Assembly (NCBI GenBank): GCA_029858345.1
Contig: JAOUFG010000007.1
Coordinates: forward strand, 1 to 46,642
From: Phycisphaerae bacterium
GTDB lineage: Bacteria; Planctomycetota; Phycisphaerae; Sedimentisphaerales; Anaerohalosphaeraceae
DNA length: 46,642 nucleotides
Reading direction: 5' to 3'
Part shown: one piece after another, positions 7,350 through 20,400 of the stretch
Layout of the letters: each line of letters starts with the position of its first letter
Position numbering within the stretch: the first letter of the stretch is position 1
Translations under genes and position numbers: made by a program
Notes under the pieces: model-generated
Databases searched by the model: none
The model's input: the letters and a program-made list of their open reading frames with translations, nothing else
What the model was told of the DNA's origin: nothing

Positions 7350-9110
7350 ATGGAGTTTATGAAAATGGCAAAAATACCTCCAGTAATAGAGTTAAAAAAC
7401 AGACACTTGGGCCGGATCCTGATTAAGATGGGTCTTCTGACCCGTGAAAAGGTCCATAAATGCCTTGCCATACAGAAGGAAAAAGGGGGCAAACTGGGGC
7501 AGGTATTCATCGATCAGGGGTTTATTAAGCCCAGTGATCTTCGCATTGCGCTGGCGGGGCAGCGCGGTATGGAGTATGTGGACCTGGAGGGGGTGGAAAT
7601 CCCCCAGGACATCATCCACCAGTTGCCGGCCCAAATGGCACGTACGTATAGAATCATCCCCGTTGAATATGACAAATCCAGAAACCAGATGACGGTGGCC
7701 ATGGACTCGCCCGATAATTTCCGGGCGACGGATGATTTGAGTACCTTAATGGGGTACAAAGTCGTCGCGAAGGTTTCCGATGAGGACAGCGTCAAGGAGC
7801 TTCTGGATCGGTACTATGCCGAAGAAGATGAGAGCATGAGCGAGCTCATCGGCGAGATTGAGTCGGATACGAGTCTGGCTCAGCTTGCCGGCCGCGATGC
7901 GAGCATTGACCTGGACGAAATTAAAGGGGCGGCCGAGTCGAACACGGTGATTAAACTGCTCAACCAGGTTTTGATGTTGGCGATCCGTGACAAGGCCTCG
8001 GATATTCACTTTGAGCCGTTTGAGGACAAATATCAGATGCGGTACCGTATTGACGGTGTTCTCTACGATATGGAATCCCCGCCGAATTATATCGCCATGG
8101 CCCTGAGCAGCCGTATCAAGGTTATGGCCGGGCTGGATATTGCCGAACGCCGTTTGCCCCAGGACGGCCGTATTGCATTGGTGATGGGCGGCAACCCGGT
8201 GGATTTGCGTGTCAGCATTCTGCCCACGATGTTCGGCGAAAGCGTGGTGCTGCGTGTGCTGGACCGAACGCAGGTGAATTTGCAGCTGGACATGCTGGGA
8301 ATGCAGGACAGTGACTTAAATTCAGTGAACCAACTGATTCACAAGCCCAACGGGATCGTGGTCGTAACCGGTCCGACGGGTTCCGGAAAAACAACGACAC
8401 TGTATTCGGCTCTCAAAGAACTCAATGATACTGAGACGAAGATCATTACCACCGAAAACCCGGTGGAATACGATATTGATGGATTGGTCCAGGTTCAGAT
8501 TCGCCCGGACATTGGCTTGACGTTTGCCAAGTGCCTACGGTCCATTTTGCGTCAGGACCCGGACATCGTGATGGTTGGTGAAATCCGTGACCTCGAAACG
8601 GCCCAGATCGCGATCCAGGCCTCCCTGACCGGTCACTTGGTATTTACGACGGTGCACACCAATGACGCACCGAGCACGATCGCCCGTCTGCTGGACCTGG
8701 GCCTGGAGCCGTTTTTGATTACCGCGACGCTGGAAGGCATCGTTGCCCAGCGGCTGGTTCGAAAGATCTGCACCCAATGCAAAACCGAATACGAGCCGAC
8801 CGAAGAGATGCTGATGGAACTTGATCTGCGTCCCGAAGACGTTGGCGATAAGACATTCTATTACGGCAAAGGGTGCAATAACTGCAACCGAACCGGCTAT
8901 CGCGGGCGGACGGGAATTTATGAGATTATGACATTTAATGATGAGTTGCGGGATTTGGTCATGAACCACGCATCCACCGCGGTTCTGCGCGAAGCGGCAC
9001 GCCGCGAAGGGATGAGGACATTGCGTGAAAACGGACTGAAGGCCATTTTTGACGGCATTACCACGCTGGATGAAGTGGCGCGGGAAACAATCGCCGCAGA
9101 AGAAGAATAA
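7350..9110 (+). CDS. gspE: GspE/PilB-family assembly ATPase (second copy)
   Basis: A 586-residue secretion/pilus assembly ATPase. It has an N-terminal MshEN-like region (HLGRILIKMGLL...), Walker A GPTGSGKTTT (~341-350), intact Asp box RQDPDIVMVGEIRDLETAQ, His box TVHTNDAPST, and zinc cysteines CTQC (~474) and CNNC (~509). All catalytic motifs are consensus, so this is probably the main motor working with the GspF protein just downstream (53-bp gap). Start choice is open: ATGs at 7350, 7359 and 7365 are in frame, and GGAG at 7352-7355 fits the 7365 start best. It has its own promoter and repeat-flanked leader. Confidence 0.94.
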   Translation: MEFMKMAKIPPVIELKNRHLGRILIKMGLLTREKVHKCLAIQKEKGGKLGQVFIDQGFIKPSDLRIALAGQRGMEYVDLEGVEIPQDIIHQLPAQMARTYRIIPVEYDKSRNQMTVAMDSPDNFRATDDLSTLMGYKVVAKVSDEDSVKELLDRYYAEEDESMSELIGEIESDTSLAQLAGRDASIDLDEIKGAAESNTVIKLLNQVLMLAIRDKASDIHFEPFEDKYQMRYRIDGVLYDMESPPNYIAMALSSRIKVMAGLDIAERRLPQDGRIALVMGGNPVDLRVSILPTMFGESVVLRVLDRTQVNLQLDMLGMQDSDLNSVNQLIHKPNGIVVVTGPTGSGKTTTLYSALKELNDTETKIITTENPVEYDIDGLVQVQIRPDIGLTFAKCLRSILRQDPDIVMVGEIRDLETAQIAIQASLTGHLVFTTVHTNDAPSTIARLLDLGLEPFLITATLEGIVAQRLVRKICTQCKTEYEPTEEMLMELDLRPEDVGDKTFYYGKGCNNCNRTGYRGRTGIYEIMTFNDELRDLVMNHASTAVLREAARREGMRTLRENGLKAIFDGITTLDEVARETIAAEEE

Positions 9111-9163: not shown

Positions 9164-10420
9164 ATGCCGGTATTCCAATATCAAGCATTAGACGCAAAAG
9201 GGAATGAATCAGCAGGCCAGATCGAGGCCCTCAGCAGCAAAGAAGCGATCAGTAAGATTCGCAATAAAGGGCTGTTTCCGACAAAGGTCCGCGCCCAAAA
9301 TGCCGCCCGGAAGGTGAAAGTCGCCAAAGACGCGGCCGGACCCAAGCGGCGGGGGGCCGGCGGCAGGGTCAAGATCAAGACCGTGACCGAGTTTGCCCGG
9401 CAGATGTCCACGCTGCAGGATGCGGGGTTGGCGATTCTGCGTTCGCTGCGGATTCTCGAAGAGCAGGCGAAAAAGGGCACCTTTAAGCGGGTGGTCGGGT
9501 ATGTGGCCGATGACATCGAGGGCGGCGCCACCTTATCCGAGGCGATGGGCAAATATCCCAAGTGTTTTAACCGGCTGTTTGTGAACATGGTGGCCGCCGG
9601 CGAGGTGGGCGGTGTGTTGGATGTCATCTTAAACCGTGTGGCGGACTTTTTGGAAAAGGCCGAGCGGCTCAAAGCCAAGATCAAAGGCGCGATGGTGTAT
9701 CCGGCGGTGGTGATGAGCGCCGCGTTCCTGATCGTGATGGGCCTGATGATTTTCATCGTGCCGACGTTTTCCGAGGTGCTCAGCGACATGAGTGACGGAA
9801 AAGCGGGCTTGCCCGCACTGACGCAGATACTGCTCAATATCAGCAACTGGCTGACGGACCGTAAGGGTCTGAACGCCGCGATCGTGATCGCCTGCCCGTT
9901 TGTGCTGTTTTCGCTGCTCAAACTGGTGCGTCAGTTCCAGAAGGGCCGGTATGTGATGGACTGGCTCAAGTTGCGTACCCCGGTCATTAAAAAGCTGGTC
10001 TATAAAACCGCGGTGGCCCGCTGGACACGAACGCTGGCTACGCTGATCAGTGCCGGCGTTCCGATTCTGGAGGCGTTGAACATTACCCGGGAAACGGCGG
10101 ACAACGAGATCTATGGCTCGATGCTGAACAAGGTGCAAAATGCGATCCGGCAGGGCAATACCTTCGCCAATCCGCTGCGTCAGTCCAAGACCGTGGACTC
10201 GATTGTGGTCAACATGGTCGATGTGGGCGAGGAAACCGGCGACCTGGACAAGATGCTCCAGAAAATCGCCGACAACTTTGATGAAGAGGCCGATGTGCTG
10301 GTCGGCTCGCTGATGAGCCTGCTGGAACCGATTATGATTATCGTCCTCGGCGGCCTGGTCGGGACCATCGTACTGGCGATGTTTTTGCCGATGGTCAAAA
10401 TGATCCAGGTCTTAATGTAA
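9164..10420 (+). CDS. gspF: GspF/PilC-family inner-membrane platform protein
   Basis: A 418-residue polytopic platform protein that couples the assembly ATPase to growing pseudopilin. It has two tandem T2SF domains. The first contains EFARQMSTLQDAGLAILRSLRILEEQ, and the second the matching ARWTRTLATLISAGVPILEALNITRETA. Hydrophobic segments lie at ~178-200, ~225-250 and the C-terminal LEPIMIIVLGGLVGTIVLAMFLPM, the usual three-helix pattern. A GGGAGG ribosome-binding site precedes the ATG. Length and order (E-F-pseudopilins) match classical gsp/pil operons. A Lys/Arg/Gly-rich linker (~45-70) separates the N-terminal strand region from the first helical domain. Confidence 0.95.
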   Translation: MPVFQYQALDAKGNESAGQIEALSSKEAISKIRNKGLFPTKVRAQNAARKVKVAKDAAGPKRRGAGGRVKIKTVTEFARQMSTLQDAGLAILRSLRILEEQAKKGTFKRVVGYVADDIEGGATLSEAMGKYPKCFNRLFVNMVAAGEVGGVLDVILNRVADFLEKAERLKAKIKGAMVYPAVVMSAAFLIVMGLMIFIVPTFSEVLSDMSDGKAGLPALTQILLNISNWLTDRKGLNAAIVIACPFVLFSLLKLVRQFQKGRYVMDWLKLRTPVIKKLVYKTAVARWTRTLATLISAGVPILEALNITRETADNEIYGSMLNKVQNAIRQGNTFANPLRQSKTVDSIVVNMVDVGEETGDLDKMLQKIADNFDEEADVLVGSLMSLLEPIMIIVLGGLVGTIVLAMFLPMVKMIQVLM

Positions 10421-10430
10421 AAGTACATAG

Positions 10431-10555
10431 AACCACGAATGAACACCAATAGACACGAATATAGAATGTAATTAGTGAAAATTAGTGGTTCGGTTAAAAA
10501 AACAATCTGTGAAATCTGTGGATAGAAAAAGAAAAATTCGTGTGTATTCGTGGTT
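10431..10555. repeat. Nested palindromic intergenic repeat (ACCACGAA/TTCGTGGT family)
   Basis: Perfect 10-bp outer arms AACCACGAAT (10431-10440) and ATTCGTGGTT (10546-10555), with inner arms AGACACGAAT and ATTCGTGTGT. Inside lies a fragment of the second family, AATCTGTGAAATCTGTGGAT (10503-10522). It sits between gspF and the first pseudopilin gene. Confidence 0.75.
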
Positions 10556-10598
10556 TAAGAAAATAAAAGCCATAATTGATTTTAGAAAGGACAAAACG

Positions 10599-11564
10599 AT
10601 GGAAAGAAAAAAAGGGTTTACAATTGTAGAGCTGCTGACGGTCATGGGCGTCATCGCCGTCCTGATCGGCCTGATGGTGCCGGCACTGGCGCTGGTCAAG
10701 GACTATTCCAAACGCATCCAGCAAAAAGCCCAGTTCCACGGCATCGATATGGGCTTGCAGATGTTTAAGACCGAGTTTGGTTCTTACCCCGATTCTTCTG
10801 ACAACTTTATAACGGGAAAAGAGGCCAGTATTTACTGTGGTTCCAATAAACTCGCTGAGGCCATGGTTGGGCTGGATTTGATTGGGTTCCATCCCAATGC
10901 GGATTTTCGTTCTGATGGGCAAAATACTATTACGGATAACTTTGGCGTTCAGGTACCCAACCATGATGTTTATGATACTACCGGTTCTCTTGCATCATGG
11001 CAAACCGGAGCACAGAATATCGATGCTCGTAAAGGTCCTTTTGTAGAAACGGAGCATGCGAATGCTTTCCGAATGGATGAGGTATATGCGAATATAGGAC
11101 CTACCAACTTTAACCAGAACTTTGCTCCGCCTGGTGCTGCTACCGCAATGTACCCTCTGGTGCTGTGTGATGTTTATGCTCAAAAACGCAGCGGAACTGG
11201 CGGCAAAAAGACAGGCACACCAATTCTGTACTACCGCGCTCATGAGAACTTTAAGTTTCAGGATTCCGCAAAGGACAACAATGGCAGCGGTTTCGTGGAT
11301 GATGATGACATTTATAGTTATCTCGACAACCAAGAATTATTAGCACTTGGGAGGCCTGACAATAATTCCACATTTGCTGTTGTAACCGCAGCGGTAACAG
11401 GTGTTCCAGCCCAGGAATTTGACAACATGATCCGTAATGAAAATGTCACAACTGTGCGACGGCCTTATCGTTCGGATTCGTATATCCTGATCTCGGCCGG
11501 TAAAGATGGCGACTTCGGTACGGCGGATGATGTCTTCAACTTTGACAAAGAAGTAACCGAATAA
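10599..11564 (+). CDS. GspG-like pseudopilin / prepilin 1
   Basis: A 321-residue prepilin-like protein with a short basic leader MERKKG followed by FTIVELLTVMGVIAVLIG: a class III signal cleaved after Gly with Glu at +5, then a hydrophobic N-terminal helix. The C-terminus has SAGKDGDFGTADDVFNFD, resembling the calcium-binding loop of GspG major pseudopilins. A longer frame reaches 10485, but it would be encoded by the intergenic repeat; ATG 10599 has a proper RBS (AGAAAGG, 8-nt spacing) and gives the correct leader length. The protein is paralogous to those at 12355 and 13458 (YPDSS, LAEAM.G.D..GFHP and the C-terminal motif are shared). It is about twice the size of a typical GspG (~140 aa). 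The large middle region has no recognised domain. Confidence 0.88.
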   Translation: MERKKGFTIVELLTVMGVIAVLIGLMVPALALVKDYSKRIQQKAQFHGIDMGLQMFKTEFGSYPDSSDNFITGKEASIYCGSNKLAEAMVGLDLIGFHPNADFRSDGQNTITDNFGVQVPNHDVYDTTGSLASWQTGAQNIDARKGPFVETEHANAFRMDEVYANIGPTNFNQNFAPPGAATAMYPLVLCDVYAQKRSGTGGKKTGTPILYYRAHENFKFQDSAKDNNGSGFVDDDDIYSYLDNQELLALGRPDNNSTFAVVTAAVTGVPAQEFDNMIRNENVTTVRRPYRSDSYILISAGKDGDFGTADDVFNFDKEVTE

Positions 11565-11586
11565 AGTCCGGCGTTGGTTTTTTGTA

Positions 11587-11644
11587 AAATCGGTGTAAAT
11601 CCGTGTAATCTGTGGTTGAAAATTGAATCGGTGTTGATCTGTGG
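11587..11644. repeat. Intergenic repeat, right arms only (ATCTGTGG family)
   Basis: Two consecutive degenerate right arms: AATCGGTGTAAATCCGTG...ATCTGTGG (11587-11615) and AATCGGTGTTGATCTGTGG (11626-11644). The GTG in the second arm (11641-11643) is the only sensible start codon of the next pseudopilin. Confidence 0.65.
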
Positions 11645-12255
11645 CTAAGCATCAAAAACAATCCGGTTTTTCGCTGATGGAAGTGCTGGTGTCGCTGGCG
11701 GTCATTTTGATTCTGATCGGCGCCCTGGTCGGTACGGGCAGCTATGTCCGGACCCGGGCCAATGTGGACCTGACGCGAAGCATGCTGGAAGTACTGTCCT
11801 CGGCGCTGGAGCAGTACTACAATGACCAAACGCCCAATGCGTTTCCGTTTGAAGCGGATTTGACTTTTGATGAAGCTGCTTTCGAGGCAATTTTTTTGCC
11901 GATTATCGCTGATGTACTGCCTGACGGTTCACTTCTGGAAAAAGATGGCAGTACGCCTCCTCTAGATGTTTCAAGTGCTTCCAGTGCGGCGTTGTTTTAC
12001 TTTCTGGACAGGAATCCGGCCAGCCGGGCCATTGCTTCGGCGGTGTCGAATACGCTGGTGACCAACAAGGACGCTGACGGAAACGCCATTACGATTACCA
12101 TCGGGACCAATCCTGCGATTGATCTGCCGCGGTATATCGACCCGTGGAAAACGAGCATCCGGTATGTGTACCTGGACGGGACGGCGTTTCCAAGCTTAAC
12201 CAGCGCCGGACCGGACAAGGTGTTCGATACGCCGGACGACATTACAAGTAAATAA
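11641..12255 (+). CDS. Pseudopilin / prepilin 2 (GspG-like, short)
   Basis: A 204-residue prepilin-like protein. The leader VAKHQKQSG is followed by FSLMEVLVSLAVILILIG, a class III cleavage site with Glu+5. The C-terminus LTSAGPDKVFDTPDD is a variant of the GspG calcium-loop motif seen in its neighbours. The GTG start lies inside the intergenic repeat; no purine-rich Shine-Dalgarno exists, only GGTG ten bases upstream. The N-terminal segment is nearly the same as that of the gene at 15229, pointing to a shared ancestor or gene conversion. Its role would be as a major or minor pseudopilin of the fibre assembled by GspE/GspF; which one cannot be decided. Confidence 0.85.
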   Translation: MAKHQKQSGFSLMEVLVSLAVILILIGALVGTGSYVRTRANVDLTRSMLEVLSSALEQYYNDQTPNAFPFEADLTFDEAAFEAIFLPIIADVLPDGSLLEKDGSTPPLDVSSASSAALFYFLDRNPASRAIASAVSNTLVTNKDADGNAITITIGTNPAIDLPRYIDPWKTSIRYVYLDGTAFPSLTSAGPDKVFDTPDDITSK

Positions 12256-12260
12256 CATTG

Positions 12261-12336
12261 AACCACGAAGGACACGAAGAGCACGAAGATAAAAAATATA
12301 TAAATAATACTTCGTGTCCTCTGTGAACTTCGTGGT
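12261..12336. repeat. Palindromic intergenic repeat (AACCACGAAG...CTTCGTGGT)
   Basis: Left part AACCACGAAGGACACGAAGA (from 12261) and right part ACTTCGTGGT (ending 12336) with internal CACGAAG/CTTCGTG pairs form a long imperfect hairpin in the space between two pseudopilin genes. It is the same family as 10431-10555. Confidence 0.75.
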
Positions 12337-12354
12337 GAAAACAAGGAACCGAAA

Positions 12355-13332
12355 ATGCAGAATAGGCCAAAAAACAGAAGAGCGTTCACGTTAATTGAAT
12401 TGCTGACGGTGATTGCGATTATCGCCGCTCTCGTGGGGATTCTCAGCGTCGCCCAGCGCAAGGTCAAGATCGTTTCGCTGAACCTGCGGCAGAAGGCCGC
12501 CTTCCACGCCGGCGAGATCTCGCTGGAACTGTACAGCAAGGACTTCGGCGGCTACCCGGACTCATCGCTGGTTTCGTCTGACGGTGCCGGCGCCGGTCCT
12601 TATGTGACCGGTTCCCAGCGCGTCGCCGAGGCACTCTTCGGTCGGGACGACCGCGGTTTTCATCCGAAATCCAAGTGGCACCCTTCGCTGGATGCTGCTG
12701 CTGCGGCACCTCATCCCGGAGCGAATTTATATACCGATGCGACGGCGAAAGACCGAAAAACACCTTACTTTGAACGAAAACGAGCCGGTTTCTACACGAT
12801 CAATGACCTGTGGGGGAGTAGCGGTTTTGGGTCGTCGCAGATCTATACATCTGCCGGGGCCACCACCGGAACCGAAATGTCGCCAGTGTTTACGGATGTG
12901 TTTACGCAGAACAGAGTGACGATTGGCACAGAAAATGTCAAGGTCGGCATGCCCATCCTGTACTTCAAGGCCGATCCCACCAAGCGTTTTCGTGTGAACA
13001 GTTCTAATGTTGAGGTTGATCCTGCCGTTGCATTAGAATATAGACAATGGGTCTATAACTTTGATGACAACCTGCCGATTCTTCAGCTTCCGTGGCTGCG
13101 GGATCCGACGGTGGAGACCGATGGAATGAATTTCCAGGATGGAATACGCGGGCACTATAAGGACTCGCAGGATACGGCGAAGGCTCATGCCCAGTTCTTT
13201 TACGAAACGATTACCCAGCGGGCCGACGGCAATTTCTTTTCGCCGCACAACAAGAGCACGTTTCTGCTGATCTCCGCCGGGTATGACGGCATTTACGGCA
13301 CGAAAGACGATCTGACGAATTTTGACGATTAA
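12355..13332 (+). CDS. GspG-like pseudopilin / prepilin 3
   Basis: A 325-residue prepilin-like protein with leader MQNRPKNRRA and helix FTLIELLTVIAIIAALVG. The cleavage position follows Ala instead of Gly, which prepilin peptidases tolerate less often. Body motifs GGYPDSS, VAEALFGRDDRGFHPKSKWH, GMPILYFKAD and the C-terminal ISAGYDGIYGTKDDLTNFD make it a clear paralogue of genes 1 and 4 of the series. The start has a normal RBS (AAGGAA) outside the repeat. It is probably exported across the inner membrane and added to the same fibre. Confidence 0.87.
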   Translation: MQNRPKNRRAFTLIELLTVIAIIAALVGILSVAQRKVKIVSLNLRQKAAFHAGEISLELYSKDFGGYPDSSLVSSDGAGAGPYVTGSQRVAEALFGRDDRGFHPKSKWHPSLDAAAAAPHPGANLYTDATAKDRKTPYFERKRAGFYTINDLWGSSGFGSSQIYTSAGATTGTEMSPVFTDVFTQNRVTIGTENVKVGMPILYFKADPTKRFRVNSSNVEVDPAVALEYRQWVYNFDDNLPILQLPWLRDPTVETDGMNFQDGIRGHYKDSQDTAKAHAQFFYETITQRADGNFFSPHNKSTFLLISAGYDGIYGTKDDLTNFDD

Positions 13333-13341
13333 CAGATAAAG

Positions 13342-13425
13342 TCCACAGATTTCACAGATTATGATGATTAAAGTTTTATAAATATAAATAAAAGAAATCT
13401 GTGTAAATCGGTGTAATCTGTGGAT
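13342..13425. repeat. Palindromic intergenic repeat, both arms (CCACAGAT...ATCTGTGG)
   Basis: Left arm GTCCACAGATTTCACAGATT and right arm AAATCTGTGTAAATCGGTG followed by TAATCTGTGGAT, separated by an AT-rich middle. This is the complete form of the family seen also at 16099-16184 and 17359-17444. Confidence 0.75.
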
Positions 13426-13457
13426 AGATCTAAAAACTTTTTCAGGAGGCGTTCGAA

Positions 13458-14375
13458 ATGAAACGCAAGACAAAAATACGAGTCGGATTTACGCTGGTGG
13501 AACTGCTGACGACGCTGGCGGTCATCGGCATTTTGCTGGGACTGCTGATCCCGGCCCTGAACCAGGTGAGCAAGACCGCCACCAAGGTCAAACAAAAGGC
13601 CCAGTTCCACGCCATCGGAACCGCACTGGAAACCTTCCGCAACGACTACGGCGACTACCCACCAAGTGCATGGGATGCGGATTTTGATGGTATGCCGGAT
13701 TATGGCTATTATTATCCTTCACAGCGGCTGGCCGAGGCGATCATTGGACGTGATGGGCTTGGCTTTCATCCAAGTTCAAAATTCCTGGGAAATGGAACAG
13801 ACGGAACGGTGACGGTGTCAGGTAATCCTCTATACTATCCTGCCATCGCTGGTTTTACAGATCCTGCAAAAGAGGCAAATCTGGCTGCTCGCAAAGGTCC
13901 TTATCTGGAACTGGAAAGTGCCAATGCGGTTAAGCCCGATTCACTGTATCTGCCTGCGGTAATTGGTAGTTATGCCCTTACAGATGGTTATGTTTTGGCG
14001 GATATGTACAAAGTTACAAAAAATGCAAAAACGGGCAAGCAGGTGGGAATGCCTATTCTCTATTATAAGGCCAACAAGTTAAAGGTTGGGAATGATCCGG
14101 CCAGTTTTGCGACAAATACCTACAATGTCGCCGACAATTCTGACGGAACCGGTTTTGTGGCGGCTCCGGCTCCCTTTAACGGTGCGACGCATCCGTTGAG
14201 TGCCGAAATCAGTAGCGGCAACGCTCCTTCGTTTTACAATGCGATCGCCAATCCGAATTTTCCGGGCCCGCCCGCGCGGCCGTATCGGGCGGAGTCGTTT
14301 TTGCTGCACAGCGCCGGCGAGGACGGGCTGTACGGGACGATGGATGATATGTTTAATTTCGACCAGGATAATTAA
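13458..14375 (+). CDS. GspG-like pseudopilin / prepilin 4
   Basis: A 305-residue prepilin-like protein with leader MKRKTKIRVG and helix FTLVELLTTLAVIGILLG. It shares GDYPPSAW, LAEAIIGRDGLGFHPSSKF, GMPILYYKA and the C-terminal HSAGEDGLYGTMDDMFNFD with its paralogues. A strong AGGAGG Shine-Dalgarno (13444-13449) precedes ATG 13458. The Asp-rich C-terminal loop is expected to bind calcium by analogy with GspG. Segments between the shared blocks differ strongly between the paralogues. Confidence 0.88.
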   Translation: MKRKTKIRVGFTLVELLTTLAVIGILLGLLIPALNQVSKTATKVKQKAQFHAIGTALETFRNDYGDYPPSAWDADFDGMPDYGYYYPSQRLAEAIIGRDGLGFHPSSKFLGNGTDGTVTVSGNPLYYPAIAGFTDPAKEANLAARKGPYLELESANAVKPDSLYLPAVIGSYALTDGYVLADMYKVTKNAKTGKQVGMPILYYKANKLKVGNDPASFATNTYNVADNSDGTGFVAAPAPFNGATHPLSAEISSGNAPSFYNAIANPNFPGPPARPYRAESFLLHSAGEDGLYGTMDDMFNFDQDN

Positions 14376-14384
14376 ATAGTTCTT

Positions 14385-14539
14385 AGTTTTTAGTTCGTAG
14401 TTCATAGAAATAGTTTGTGTGAATTGGTGTTTATTGGTGGCTGAATAAGAAATGGATTTTTGTGTTTTTCGTGTGGTTCGTGGTTTGTAGTTTTTAGTTC
14501 GTAGAGATAGTTTGTGTGAATTGGTGTTAATCTGTGGCT
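14385..14539. repeat. Tandem-duplicated intergenic repeat with AGTTCGTAG elements
   Basis: AGTTTTTAGTTCGTAG occurs at 14385-14400 and again at 14489-14504. Each copy is followed by ATAGTTTGTGTGAATTGGTG. The first copy ends in GGTGGCTGAATAAG, where the would-be GTG start runs into a stop after three codons; the second ends in TCTGTGGCT and provides the start of the gene at 14534. A TTCGTGTGGTTCGTGGTTT fragment of the other family lies between them. Confidence 0.65.
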
Positions 14540-15178
14540 AAATATAAAAAACAATCCGGTATCTCGCTGACAGAGATCCTTGTGACAATCTCGATCATGG
14601 CGATCCTGATGGCGATTGCGGTCCCGGCGGCCAAATCGCTCATGGCCTCGTTCGAGTCGGGCACCGGCGCCCGGCAGCTCATCAACGCGGCCCTGTCCAA
14701 CGCCCGCGCCATCGCCGTCCGCGAACAAACCTACGCCGGCGTCCGCTTTCAGCAGGATGCAACCGGCAATACGTATATTGTTTTCATCGTACATGATCCG
14801 GCGGTAACAGGGTATGCCAATGGGTTTCTCGCGGTAACCGGCCGCAAGCCCATGAAACTGCCCGAAGATGTTTCTGTCAGAGCAGGTGTTGTTGACCTTA
14901 CAAATAATGTTACAGGCACCCAGGAGTTTTTTTCGGTCGTTTTTTCCGGGGCGGGCAAATTAACAGTGCATCCGAACCGTTGCTCCCATAGTTCGGCTAA
15001 CGATACGATTTTTAATGCACCCGGCAACAATGTGATGTTTCAAGAAGACACCGTAGACTGGTCGAGTGTACAGAGTTTTGATTTGATTAAAAAGGACAAA
15101 AGCGGTGTGGTGCTGGAGTCAACCACCGAATATATCAGCCCGTACACGGGCGAGTTAGTGATCCAGTATCGTGATTAA
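14534..15178 (+). CDS. GspH/FimT-like minor pseudopilin
   Basis: A 214-residue prepilin-like protein. The leader VAKYKKQSG is followed by ISLTEILVTISIMAILMAIAVPA (Glu+5 present). The following SLMASFESGTGARQLINAALSNARAIAVREQ matches the GspH/FimT pattern (helix with a run of Ala/Arg, then beta-rich body). GspH-type proteins sit at the tip complex of the pseudopilus. The start is a GTG at 14534 in the intergenic repeat, without a purine-rich RBS. It has no SAGxDG motif, unlike the G-like group. Confidence 0.85.
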   Translation: MAKYKKQSGISLTEILVTISIMAILMAIAVPAAKSLMASFESGTGARQLINAALSNARAIAVREQTYAGVRFQQDATGNTYIVFIVHDPAVTGYANGFLAVTGRKPMKLPEDVSVRAGVVDLTNNVTGTQEFFSVVFSGAGKLTVHPNRCSHSSANDTIFNAPGNNVMFQEDTVDWSSVQSFDLIKKDKSGVVLESTTEYISPYTGELVIQYRD

Positions 15179-15202
15179 AAGAATGAGAAAAATATTTAAA
15201 AA

Positions 15203-15232
15203 GAAATCTGTGTAAATCGGTGTAATCTGTGG
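15203..15232. repeat. Intergenic repeat, right arm only
   Basis: GAAATCTGTGTAAATCGGTG then TAATCTGTGG. The final GTG (15229-15231) is the start codon of the next gene. There is no left arm nearby. Confidence 0.7.
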
Positions 15233-16092
15233 ACAAAGATAGAAAACAATCTGGTTTTTCGCTGATGGAGGTGCTGATCGCCACGGGCATCATGGCCATC
15301 GGGCTGGTGATGGTCGCGACGATTTTCCCCGTCGGCGTCAAGCTGACCACGCTGACGACCGAACGCACCGTCGGCGCCGTCGTCGCCGATGAGGCCTTCG
15401 CCAAGATCCAGCTCTACGGCCTGCGCGATTTTCAATACTGGCCGGTAGGCGATCCGAATGAAGCATGTACAGATTTCCAGTATGCTATTAAACCCACTAT
15501 TGATTTTAATGTTGATGGCAGTATAAATATTTCCGATGTTGCACTTTCTGTTTGGGATGAGTTTTTGTATCCCTCAGCAACGATGCCTGCCGGACAGGAT
15601 AATAATTATCACTGGTCGGCCCTGTGCCGCCGGATGGGCGCCAAAGACGTGCAGGTGACGGTGTTTGTTAATCGAAAAATTGGTTCGGGTGCTGGATTTT
15701 ATGGTTACGACAGTGCCTTGGTTCCTACGATCCCTCCCGTTCCTTATAATGATTGGCCGATGCCGGTTCGCGTGGAGGTGAATCGCGAAGATTCAAAAAT
15801 ATTGACAATTGATACGGCAGGCGTCTGGTCAAATACGGCGTTAGAATTTTTTGATGACGGCTATATGATTGTGGATGATTTGACCGGGAATAAATACCGC
15901 GTACTTGAAGTGGACCCTTTGTCCGGCACTCTTAAATTGCAGGGCGATTGGGTTGGCGATTTAACTGCTGTTCCACCTTTAACCTATCCTGTACCAACTT
16001 TGATTTGGGTGGTGCCGCCGGCGGTCGGCAGCGACCGGTATCCGTGTGTGGGCGTGTACCAGAAAGTGATACGCTTTGATGACATAAAGTAA
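15229..16092 (+). CDS. GspI/PilV-like minor pseudopilin
   Basis: A 287-residue prepilin-like protein: leader VDKDRKQSG, then FSLMEVLIATGIMAIGLVMVATIFPVG, typical of GspI/PilV proteins (S-L-x-E-V with a Gly-rich helix). Later AVVADEAFAKIQLYGL resembles the segment after the helix in this group. The GTG start is in the repeat. The rest is beta-rich and unannotated. DNA composition alternates visibly within the gene: GC-rich codons in the helix, around 15615-15660 and at the 3' end, AT-rich between. Confidence 0.83.
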   Translation: MDKDRKQSGFSLMEVLIATGIMAIGLVMVATIFPVGVKLTTLTTERTVGAVVADEAFAKIQLYGLRDFQYWPVGDPNEACTDFQYAIKPTIDFNVDGSINISDVALSVWDEFLYPSATMPAGQDNNYHWSALCRRMGAKDVQVTVFVNRKIGSGAGFYGYDSALVPTIPPVPYNDWPMPVRVEVNREDSKILTIDTAGVWSNTALEFFDDGYMIVDDLTGNKYRVLEVDPLSGTLKLQGDWVGDLTAVPPLTYPVPTLIWVVPPAVGSDRYPCVGVYQKVIRFDDIK

Positions 16093-16098
16093 ATAAAG

Positions 16099-16184
16099 TC
16101 CACAGATTTCACAGATTTCTATGATTAAGAGAATATTTATAAAAACTTAAAAAAGAAATCTGTGTTAATCAGTGTAATCTGTGG
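16099..16184. repeat. Palindromic intergenic repeat, both arms
   Basis: TCCACAGATTTCACAGATTT at the left and GAAATCTGTGTTAATCAGTG then TAATCTGTGG at the right. A further GAATCCGTGAAATCCGTGG (16203-16221) lies inside the first codons of the next gene. Confidence 0.75.
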
Positions 16185-16190
16185 ATAAAA

Positions 16191-17348
16191 ATGAATTTGA
16201 GAGAATCCGTGAAATCCGTGGTTAAGAAAAAAGCGTTTACGATTGTCGAGCTCTTGGTAGCGATGACGCTGCTGGTGATCCTGCTGGGATTGAGCGGGAT
16301 GGTGTTTAATACCACCGTTCAGGCCCACCGCGCCGCCGGAGCGAGCATCGACGTGTCGCGCAACCTGCGGGCGATCACCGAACAGCTCAGCAACGACCTC
16401 CGCGGCCTGCGAAAGGACGCGCCGTTGTTTATCAAGTTTTACTCGATCGGCAATGCGAGGCATGATTTGGTTCATTTCTTCGCCGACGGTGATTTTCAGT
16501 CGACCAAGCAGTACGCCGGACAAACCATTTACGGCAATGTCGCCCGCATCTATTACGGCCATGCCAATTCTGTGGACATTTTCAATGATCCCGGCTTGAC
16601 ACCGGATTATTATTCATATCAAACGCTGGCCCGCAAAACACATATCCTGACCGCCGATGCCGGTATTAAAGCGGTTTATGGTCAAATTCCGCTGATTAGT
16701 AGCGGTGGTCTGATTGATTACACGCAATTCGCGACAGATTTTCTGTTTTCCAACAATTTCCCAAATGAAAACCAACTGGAATTCGACACGATTACGCTGA
16801 CAGAATGGATTAATGCGTTAAATTTTCTGAACGCAGGCAATCCCGATAACGCAGATGCTTTTGTTGATAACTGCATGGATGACGGCACCCGGCCGTTTAT
16901 CGACTTGTCAAAGGTAGAAACGCTCCATCTGCTGATGGCCCAGGGCGTGATCGAATTTCAGGTCCAGTGGGCCTATACGACGAATGACTTAGTGACCGTG
17001 GCTGGCTTGCCGGTTCCGTGGCTTTTTGCCGGCGTTCGCTGGTGGCCGAGTGACGACCCGGACGGCGATCCCTCAACAGTAGGCTCCGATTTTGATGTGA
17101 TGGCGGGGCTGGATATATTTGGTGTCTATCTTCGGATGCCCAATGGTTCAAGCTTTGCTCAATGGCATGATGTTGTATCCGCGAATCCGGCAAAACGCTG
17201 CCGTGCCAATGATGGTAGCGGGGGAGCTTTTTACTTCAAAGACAATTTTTACCCCGCCGCGTTGAAGTTTACGTTTACGCTGAAAGACAGCAACGGCATC
17301 TTCGCCGACGGCAAGACCTTTACGCATATTGTGTACCTTGACAATTAA
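16191..17348 (+). CDS. GspJ-like minor pseudopilin
   Basis: A 385-residue prepilin-like protein with helix AFTIVELLVAMTLLVILLGLSG (Glu+5), followed by TTVQAHRAAGASIDVSRNLRAITEQLSNDLRGL, the extended helix typical of GspJ/PilW. The ATG at 16191 lacks an RBS, and the first nine codons derive from the intergenic repeat. A GTG at 16218 (VVKKK-AFTIVELL) would give a normal short leader and stand in the same sequence context as the GTG starts of three sister genes. The remainder holds no known domain. GspJ forms the tip complex with GspH/I/K. Confidence 0.83.
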   Translation: MNLRESVKSVVKKKAFTIVELLVAMTLLVILLGLSGMVFNTTVQAHRAAGASIDVSRNLRAITEQLSNDLRGLRKDAPLFIKFYSIGNARHDLVHFFADGDFQSTKQYAGQTIYGNVARIYYGHANSVDIFNDPGLTPDYYSYQTLARKTHILTADAGIKAVYGQIPLISSGGLIDYTQFATDFLFSNNFPNENQLEFDTITLTEWINALNFLNAGNPDNADAFVDNCMDDGTRPFIDLSKVETLHLLMAQGVIEFQVQWAYTTNDLVTVAGLPVPWLFAGVRWWPSDDPDGDPSTVGSDFDVMAGLDIFGVYLRMPNGSSFAQWHDVVSANPAKRCRANDGSGGAFYFKDNFYPAALKFTFTLKDSNGIFADGKTFTHIVYLDN

Positions 17349-17358
17349 ACTTAGGGAG

Positions 17359-17444
17359 TCCACAGATTGCACCGATTTTTATGATTAAAGATAATAAAGA
17401 ACTTTAAAAAAGAAATCTGTGTGAATCTGTGAAATCTGTGGATA
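17359..17444. repeat. Palindromic intergenic repeat, both arms
   Basis: GTCCACAGATTGCACCGATT at the left and AATCTGTGTGAATCTGTG then AAATCTGTGGAT at the right. It fills the space before the GspK-like gene. Confidence 0.72.
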
Positions 17445-17450
17445 GTAAAA

Positions 17451-20400
17451 ATGAAAACAAAAAACAGACAATTCGATAAACGCAGCGGTTCAGCTTTGAT
17501 CCTGGTGGTGGTGGTCACGGTGCTGCTGGCGGTGGTGGGCGTGATGTTTTTGATGGTTTCCCGCGCCTCGGAACTGGAAACCGGCGCCGTCATCCAGAGC
17601 GCCGACCTCGACAACGCCGTCGATTCCGTCGTCGCCCAAATCAACGAAGTCCTCGTCGAAGACCTGTTCGGGAACGATAATCAAATCGTGGACAATGACC
17701 CCGCCGCTTCGGATGAACCCTATGACGTTCCGAATGCCAATGACCCTTGGCTGGCCTCACTGGAGCCGTATGCGGGCTTTGATACTCTTGGCAATCCCGT
17801 CTATTTCTGGCAGCGTATTACCGATTTGTATGGTAACAATTTTGGAAATGTTCCGTTGGGTTACTATGATCCCCAGAGCCAGCAAAGCGTTTTTTCAGAA
17901 ATCGATCCTGCTGAATGGAACGGCTCCTATCCTGAGTTAGCTGTAGATGCTATTGACACACTGGTCAAAGTCATTAAACCTCATGACCGTACATATCCCG
18001 TGAATCCTACGGCACCAGCAGGGTGGGCCAAAGACTTTGCCGGCGCCCGCGCCGACGCCGATGGTGACGGTGTCGCCGACAGCCGCTGGGTGCCGGTGCC
18101 GGGACTGACCACCAGTCGCGGCGAGCCGATCTTCGCCGCCCTCCGCATCATCGACAACTGTGCCATGCTCAATCTGAATACGGCGCATTGTTTCTATCAG
18201 GAACCTTATACTGTTAACCCCGCATCTCCCTTCGTCAAGCAATGGTTTGAAAACGAGACTGCTGCATCGCCATATCATGACAATCAATCCACCGGTTCCG
18301 GTCGATATCTGACGGAGATCAATTACCTGCCGTTTTTAAGAGGAGCAGACCTTGGTGCTTTCTGGGGTGGCAGCGGCGATGGTTGGTATAACCTGATGCA
18401 GGCAAAGGGATTCTGGAATCCGCTTCCGGCCCCGGGTTTGCCCCTGTCTCCGCAGAATTGCCAGAGTATTGTCATGAACATTGAAAAGCCTGTGTCCGGT
18501 TTTCAGTTCTTTGATATCGGCGATGAACTGGAACTTCGCAATCGTTATCTGGTGACTTCTAAAACAGAAGCACGTTTCGAGCAAGATGCAGCTGCAAATT
18601 ATACACTCGATTCCGGGAATGGTGCCGGTGGGGCGTATGCGGCGTTGGAAGTGCCTCGTGATACTACGAATGACTTTGGAAGCTGGACACGTCGAATTGA
18701 TTCATTTAATTTTGATAGGTGGGATAAGACCGGGCTTGTTATTGATGCAACGCCCGATCCTTATGAATACGACCGGCGCCATGTCTGTACATTTTACAGT
18801 TATGACCGAGATCTTCGAGGTAATGTGACTTATCCCGAGATTGAAAAGCAGTTAGCTCTCTTGGGGCTTCCTCAGGAACAAGCCGACCAGATCCGCTGGC
18901 TGTTTTGCAGGCTCGGAGCCGCCGTTTCACTGCGTCTGCCGCTGCGATCTGAATTTCAAACGGATTCTGACTATGCGTATGGATGCCGGGCTCATTTGGT
19001 CACCATACTGTATACGATAAGGGCGTATTATGTGAGTCTTGGCTTTGAAATTCGTGAAGCTGCTTTAAAGTCGGCTCAGTTCGCCGCGAATCTGATCGAT
19101 TATTCAGATTTTGCCGGCAGCATCAGCATCTTTTATACGGGAGATCCAGGTTGGGCACAATACCCAATTCAGTACCCCGAAGATTGTACGTTCCTGAATG
19201 CCCAAATCATCAACCAGATGGTTATTGAAGTGGCCAGGAGAGAATTAGGTCGAGACAAACGTTTGATGGAATATTTTTATGATAGAACATTCGACTTCGG
19301 CCTTGAACCGGATGACATCGTTTTCGGCTATGAAAAACAACCGTTTATTTCAGAAGTCTATTGTCAATGGGACAACACTATAGGCGATGTGCATACTGCA
19401 ATACAGGGGTTTGCCATCGAGTTGTTAAATCCATATTCCAACGATGTCTATATTGATGGATGGAAACTTCAGGTCGGCGATGCAGTGGATCACGATATTG
19501 GTACGTCAACGGCGCCTACATGGTTTGTTCCGGGATATGACATGGGGGCACTGAGTCCAGGCAGATTTGTGTTCGAAAGTAAAGACTCTGTGCTTATAGA
19601 ACCCGGCGGTGTAATCCCATACCCTGTGGTTTCTGAATTAGAGTCGCTTGACACTGAGTGGTTTGCCAATAGATCGCTTGAGATCAAACTTTTACGGCCT
19701 GCTCCGCAATGGGTTCAAGACAATCGCTCAATTGCCTACTTGGTCGTTGATAGTGTTTCTACTGAAATACTGAGAGATCCTAATGAGGGTATTTTCGGCC
19801 TCAACGGTCGGAATTCTATCAAGCGTGATGATAATGATTGGAAATTCGTCAACCTGGATTATGAAACGCAGCGAGAAAACGATGGCAATTTTTCTCTGAC
19901 ACTTGGCCAGGATAATGATGTTAACCTGTCAGGCGAGGGCTTCCAGCTTGCGGTTGCGGATGACGGCCTGCCGCTGACACGGTGGCATGAATTGGAAACG
20001 CTGGCATTGTATGGTAACGGGCCGGAACTGGACACGACCGCACCGAGTCCGAGTCCTGCTGCTGCGGCACCCGCCGCGGCGATGGCGATTCTTGATCCCA
20101 ATGCCGTCCCAACGGTAACATGGCAATTAGCAAATCTGGAGTCCGATGAAGTTCCGTATTTTGATTTGGCAGGCGATTCAAGCGACTTGCTGAACTATGT
20201 AACCACCAGCGATCAGACCGAAAGCGGAACCGTGCCCGGACGGATCAATATCAATACCGCGCCGGTGCATGTGATCGCCGCGGCCATCCCGCCGACACTG
20301 GCCGACCCGAACGCGGCCGATCCGGACGAGGCGGTGGCCTTCTCCGCATTGCAGCTGGCACAGGAAATTGTCAATTACCGTGAATCTCCAAGTGGACCAT

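Follow-up and report, generated by a model that had tools for sequence, protein, structure and literature searches.

A type II secretion-like operon with repeats at its gene starts

The window (the whole stretch of DNA analysed, 46,642 nucleotides) is one contig from a MAG of 3.0 Mb that is Sedimentisphaerales-like (Planctomycetota), and it carries a type II secretion-like operon, with a GspE/PilB-like gene at 7350, a GspF/PilC-like gene at 9164 and seven prepilin-type genes (Table 1). Of the seven window proteins, all match prepilin or pseudopilin models and six match PF07963; the class III signal or N-methylation domain, together with the GspE- and GspF-like neighbours, places them among the pseudopilins.

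Three of these genes (11641, 14534 and 15229) have as predicted start the GTG of a TCTGTGG repeat end, as the first-pass annotation had proposed, with an in-frame stop one codon 5' of it: their 5' ends read TGA-TCT-GTG-GCT-AAG, TAA-TCT-GTG-GCT-AAA and TAA-TCT-GTG-GAC-AAA, respectively. In each gene this terminal GTG is the sole ATG, GTG or TTG between the in-frame stop and the Gly of the prepilin cleavage site (class III signals GFSLME, GISLTE and GFSLME), and the next in-frame starts, at +36, +48 and +36, fall within or past the conserved prepilin motif. A non-canonical start was rejected, as the interval from stop to cleavage site holds no near-cognate codon (ATN, CTG, TTG) besides GTG. The GGTG said to precede the start by six to eight bases was measured at 7, 7 and 6 nt, the sister genes 10599, 12355 and 13458 do have the purine-rich sites attributed to them (AAAGGA, AAGGA and AGGAGG), and the failed start described before 14534 reads GTG GCT GAA TAA (14437–14448).

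Two further proposals fared less well. The repeat GTG at 16218 is in frame with a fourth gene, 16191, but it competes with an ATG (16191), a TTG (16197) and another GTG (16209); since several in-frame starts are available, it is only an optional start. The repeat had also been described as an RNA hairpin, yet the start-serving arms of the three genes are solitary half-elements and, with the left arm missing, none of the three has the hairpin in which its start would be buried.

Table 1. Repeat arms, full elements and associated genes in the window
Feature	Coordinates	Strand	Remarks
Composite of arms (ATTCGTGG and TCTGTGG subtypes) before gene 10599	10431..10557	+	Gene has own SD and ATG
Solitary right arm, first copy before gene 11641	11586..11617	+	Profile match, 32.6 bits
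Partial right arm without left arm	11624..11646	+	GTG 11641-11643, GGTG 11630-11633
Pseudopilin gene 11641	11641-12255	+	Sole start is terminal GTG of arm 11624..11646
Full element before gene 13458	13342..13425	+	Left arm 13342-13361, right arm 13393-13425; gene has own AGGAGG and ATG
Right arm, first of two copies	14408..14442	+	GTG 14437, TAA after three codons (failed start)
Solitary right arm	14507..14539	+	Profile match; GTG 14534-14536, GGTG 14523-14526
Pseudopilin gene 14534 (H)	14534-15178	+	Sole start is terminal GTG of arm 14507..14539
Putative ancestral start-frame remnant of gene I	15171..15215	+	GTG kept, frame VIKRMRKIFKKKSV* ended by repeat TAA; from comparison with G008, G006, G004
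End of gene H (GAT TAA; YRD*)	15174..15178	+	In sequence like repeat loop GATTAA
Solitary right arm	15202..15233	+	Profile match; GTG 15229-15231, GGTG 15219-15222, 6 nt upstream
Pseudopilin gene 15229 (I)	15229-16092	+	Sole start is terminal GTG of arm 15202..15233
Full element before gene 16191	16100..16186	+	Left arm 16100-16117, loop, right arm 16154-16186
Further right arm over start of gene 16191-17348	16191..16223	+	GTGs at 16209 and 16218 share the frame of ATG 16191
Full element before gene 17451	17360..17443	+	ATG 13 nt behind repeat GTG, without purine SD

A mobile-looking palindromic repeat family

The repeat was surveyed with a sequence profile of its right arm, and the census of each genome covers the 150 best-scoring candidates and fetched stretches (for the source genome of the window, ~150 arms, being the best-scoring candidates listed); genes were called with a codon-usage script, and all genomes are draft MAGs. 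In a full element an A-rich loop separates the left arm (CCACAGATTTCACAGATT) from the right arm, which is built of two or three 9–10-nt units and ends in GTGG, often followed by NTAAA. Full elements have terminal inverted repeats of the kind that define a MITE (arms CCACAGATT.../...AATCTGTGG), and the loop sequence GATTAA is common to the elements at 13342, 16100 and 17360. A matching left arm was found at about a third of the arms in the source genome, where 45 of 67 clear cases were solitary. Among 139 placed arms there, 85 face a same-strand gene, 51 are convergent and 1 lies inside a called gene. We regard the repeat as a mobile-looking palindromic family. Further subtypes of the same repeat plan (ATTCGTGG and CTTCGTGG) occur at 10431–10557 and 12260–12337, in front of genes 10599 and 12355, both of which keep their own SD and ATG.

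The family is patchy in Planctomycetota (13/59 genomes). The congener G006 (96% complete) gave no match to the repeat profile, and its pseudopilin and LOG genes have conventional starts, which shows that the family can be missing within one genus; in an unrelated planctomycete, G078, none of 27 sampled arms supplies a start. On these grounds, universality across the phylum was rejected. An Rfam search of positions 10400–17600 returned no match at gathering score, and in the open-access literature no paper was found for the exact repeat sequences, other searches giving only analogues. In G043, from another planctomycete family, 95 arms scored over threshold, many of them equally, and the equal scores suggest a recent burst of the repeat.

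The source genome has 12 Y1_Tnp matches. A RAYT as mover of the repeat was considered and rejected: five Y1_Tnp loci were read, and their flanks are other, G+C-rich palindromes. These palindromes, found at Y1_Tnp genes (L371–L375 and elsewhere; e.g. GCCCTTACAGGGC / CAGGGCGTTGCCCTGGGCTA), constitute a second intergenic repeat family, and yet another intergenic repeat type (ACAGGATTAACAGGATTTACAGGAT and its complement) adjoins GTGG repeats at L001, L025, L057 and other loci. A LOG-like gene (G000:C47; L074, L375) has a RAYT-like Y1_Tnp gene as its immediate upstream neighbour, and the arm near the C47 Y1_Tnp copy belongs to the LOG gene side.

Repeat-supplied starts across the source genome

Five genes of the source genome have the repeat GTG as their only conventional start: the three pseudopilin genes, a LOG-like gene (L074:1528, C47; TIGR00730 at 90.8 bits, just below cut-off) and a PLP-dependent decarboxylase-like gene (L083:5620, C177; best match lysA, below cut-off). 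Each of the five starts at the terminal GTG of a solitary arm; with five cases, that all the arms are solitary is not significant on its own, given the excess of solitary arms among the clear cases. No internal repeat GTG was found as an obligate start in this genome. The proposal that the repeats supply start codons thus extends to more genes than first described, while its generalization to a portable module is not supported. Where the next gene lies within 70 nt of a listed arm and on the same strand, its phase, the check originally suggested, is random genome-wide (18/11/18), which excludes a general phase preference, and the convergent arms (51/139) face a gene on the other strand. About 95% of the arms start no gene, most genes behind an arm have their own ATG, and many arms meet a stop right behind their GTG (e.g. 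GTGGACTAA). Nevertheless, since the repeat GTG recurs as sole start in unrelated genes, and in relatives, more than chance is indicated; random placement would not yield obligate starts in conserved genes.

GGTG as a candidate ribosome-binding site

In the source genome, GGTG occurs in the unit before the GTG (6–7 nt) of every obligate arm (5/5) versus 9/109 other arms (p=1.4e-5). In a hand-curated set of relatives it was found in 3/8 start-serving arms versus 8/136 others (p=0.015), which is weaker but points in the same direction. GGTG is present at gene J of G004 and G021 and at the LOG gene of G005; elsewhere this unit carries GGCG (gene J of G008), TGTG (a pilin-like gene at L279 of G004, and the LOG gene of G004) or CGTG (gene H of G024), and the decarboxylase gene of G004 has neither GGTG nor one of these variants. 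The curated list left out G029 and G030, where the subtype consensus seems to include GGTG, as well as the decayed or displaced LOG starts of G003 and G007. Under an automatic definition, which overlooked 11641 and admitted one false case from the source genome and two doubtful ones from the relatives, the counts were 4/5 versus 9/130 (p=2.6e-4) and 2/7 versus 8/136 (p=0.077), respectively.

Since the 16S 3' end is GGATCACCTCCTTT, GGTG can pair with the CACC of the 16S tail; the complementarity spans 4 bases, 6–7 nt from the start, and GGTG is missing in some of the relatives' arms. The view of GGTG as an SD-like site is consistent with its enrichment in start-serving arms of the source genome and draws weaker backing from the relatives. 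Because several start-serving arms of relatives lack it, GGTG is not required, and overall it looks helpful but dispensable. Initiation may not need an SD at all, as about 44% of the genes examined are without a purine SD. The start region is more open in obligate arms than in full elements (p=0.005), and is similar to that of other solitary arms.

Across the source genome and relatives, 25 genes have an ATG 8–16 nt behind a repeat GTG and no purine SD between the two; in the window, 17435–17451 is an example of an ATG so close behind. The distances of the ATG from the repeat GTG are bimodal, with a dip at 16–19 nt and a second group at 20–27 nt, in which many genes have an SD of their own, and where the ATG lies 17–40 nt behind the GTG a purine SD is present in 31 of 47 genes. 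At 8–16 nt a purine SD would hardly fit, and the repeat end may stand in as a weak site for the following ATG.

Repeat starts in related genomes

A before-and-after comparison is available at the junction of genes H and I (15229). The start GTG of gene I in G008 and G006 falls within the last part of gene H (...CGTGAACAG...), which there ends YREQKP* or YREQNP*, and an H/I overlap is also present in G004. In the source genome the old GTG is kept at 15171, and its frame enters the repeat and is closed at 15213; H terminates as YRD*, its TAA lying in the loop-like GATTAA, and I restarts at the terminal GTG of the repeat with an eight-residue leader, the same length as in the ancestral start of the relatives. 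From this arrangement we infer that one repeat insertion split the overlapping pair and restored both ends, with loss of the left arm. The GTGs at 15171/15229 no more than hint at a target-site duplication. A related-loci search with gene I gave no match.

The LOG gene starts at a repeat-end GTG in the congeners G004 and G005; in G003 it begins GTG-GCT-AAA behind a decayed arm, and in G007 with a GTG just behind an arm. In the congeners G001, G006 and G008 it has an ATG without a repeat, directly behind another gene. An ATG lies near the start in 71/80 LOG loci across the group, and other families also have ATG without a repeat. The orthologs with a repeat-end GTG share 74–85% protein identity, and the LOG gene seems to have changed neighbours on gaining its repeat start. 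G003 and G007 have similar sequence upstream of the LOG gene. In a LOG alignment the lineage falls among Phycisphaerae/Sedimentisphaerales records. The decarboxylase gene starts with the repeat GTG in G004 and with an ATG in both G006 and G008.

We also surveyed ~101 prepilin-type genes in 20 relatives, of which 7 start in a repeat. Gene J does so in G008, G004, G021 and G029 (two families) and gene H in G024; two genes start in a repeat in G030, one of them with the terminal GTGG changed to ATGG. Since repeat subtypes and genes differ, the pseudopilin repeat starts in relatives are not all one event.

Discussion

By comparison of their sequences, we show that the repeat GTG is the only conventional predicted start of five genes and that in other species such starts are retained or appear again. 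The arrangement probably arose by repeated exaptation of half-elements that stand alone and end in what looks like a weak Shine-Dalgarno site plus a GTG start. Solitary right arms would repeatedly come to lie on the 5' ends of genes, where the terminal GTG would then serve as start codon and the GGTG of the preceding unit, 6–7 nt upstream, would pair with the CACC of the 16S tail as a weak Shine-Dalgarno site. GTG-GNT-AAA would encode Met-X-Lys, suited to a prepilin leader, which is short and positively charged before the cleaved Gly. At 15229, where the old start lay inside gene H, the repeat would have split the pair and provided a new stop for H and a new start for I. Initiation at the repeat GTG, the pairing of GGTG with the ribosome, and joins that were accidental and then kept by selection are all parts that we infer from the sequences. 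The before-and-after states in relatives point to a non-coding repeat taking over the start of conserved genes, to an overlapping gene pair split with both ends restored by the repeat, and to a borrowed start (the LOG gene) kept while species diverge. They offer a concrete, testable route to changed gene starts and operon spacing, and they caution annotators that a start codon need not be spurious when it is a GTG within a repeat.

It is possible, if rather less convincing, that translation does begin at the repeat GTG but in a leaderless or SD-independent way, with the GGTG an accident and the repeat merely tolerated. The many genes without a purine SD, the relatives' start arms without GGTG and the A-rich codons after the GTG would all fit; against this stand the presence of GGTG in all five obligate arms versus 8% of other arms, the same tendency in relatives, and the fact that two of the five obligate cases came to light once the idea had already been put forward.

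Repeated exaptation does not require that the three window genes be independent events, and they may not be. Alternatively, they could share one duplicated or converted 5' cassette of arm and leader, so that the start was gained once and then copied. Their leaders are alike at the DNA level (AAAACAATCYGGT in all three) and repeats favour recombination; yet the arms differ in subtype, spacing (9 versus 10 nt unit) and flanks, gene I keeps its ancestral junction, and the arrangement is also found at two unrelated genes and in several relatives. We therefore think a single shared origin unlikely, while copying between 11641 and 14534 may have occurred.

Still harder to sustain is a portable translation-initiation cassette, in which the repeat would spread or be kept because GGTG-N6/7-GTGG starts whatever follows, the end GGTG-N6/7-GTGG-NTAAA being selected as a mobile ribosome-binding site and start that rescues or separates genes where it lands. 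The enrichment of GGTG in start-serving arms, the recurrence in several genes and species, and the 25 further genes with a close ATG and no purine SD of their own speak in its favour. Random phase, the convergent arms, the great majority of arms that start no gene, the stops behind many GTGs and the lack of start use in G078 make it improbable. That the starts are an annotation artefact, with real starts elsewhere or the genes dead, is very improbable: the repeat start is indeed only optional for 16191 and seven other genes with an ATG 12–24 nt behind the GTG, but the five obligate genes have no other ATG, GTG or TTG before the conserved N-terminus, their frames are intact with coding-like codon use, and the LOG orthologs keep the repeat-end GTG across their divergence.

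Repeated exaptation has partial parallels in known systems. REPINs and REP singlets are palindromes located between genes, either in inverted pairs or as singlets, the latter thought to be remnants (PMC3116915). The repeat described here has a similar doublet/singlet organisation, and its source genome also has Y1_Tnp matches; unlike in the REPIN/RAYT system, the palindromes next to the five Y1_Tnp genes examined are of other, G+C-rich kinds. No start donation was found in that paper, where the term 'start codon' is absent. In Streptococcus pneumoniae, boxC of the BOX elements gives a start codon to expressed ORFs, without good Shine-Dalgarno sites (PMC3049150). BOX is thus likewise an interspersed repeat that contributes a start codon, but BOX starts open new short ORFs without known relatives, whereas here the genes are conserved pseudopilin, LOG-like and decarboxylase-like genes. 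MITEAba12 of Acinetobacter is a short palindromic mobile repeat with start codons at its ends, some copies of which give an MQQS N-terminus (PMC6382973). It resembles the present repeat as a short palindrome that donates a start codon to a neighbouring gene. MITEAba12 is an IS-derived MITE with terminal inverted repeats and 9-bp-type insertion biology, whereas the arms here are built of unit repeats, and no transposase or IS relative is known for them. Unlike in MITEAba12, the start is supplied here by solitary half-elements, is accompanied by an SD-like GGTG, and is relied on by conserved genes in several species. MITEAba12 and BOX are the nearest precedents found, and the present case differs from them in that conserved genes are dependent on the repeat start.
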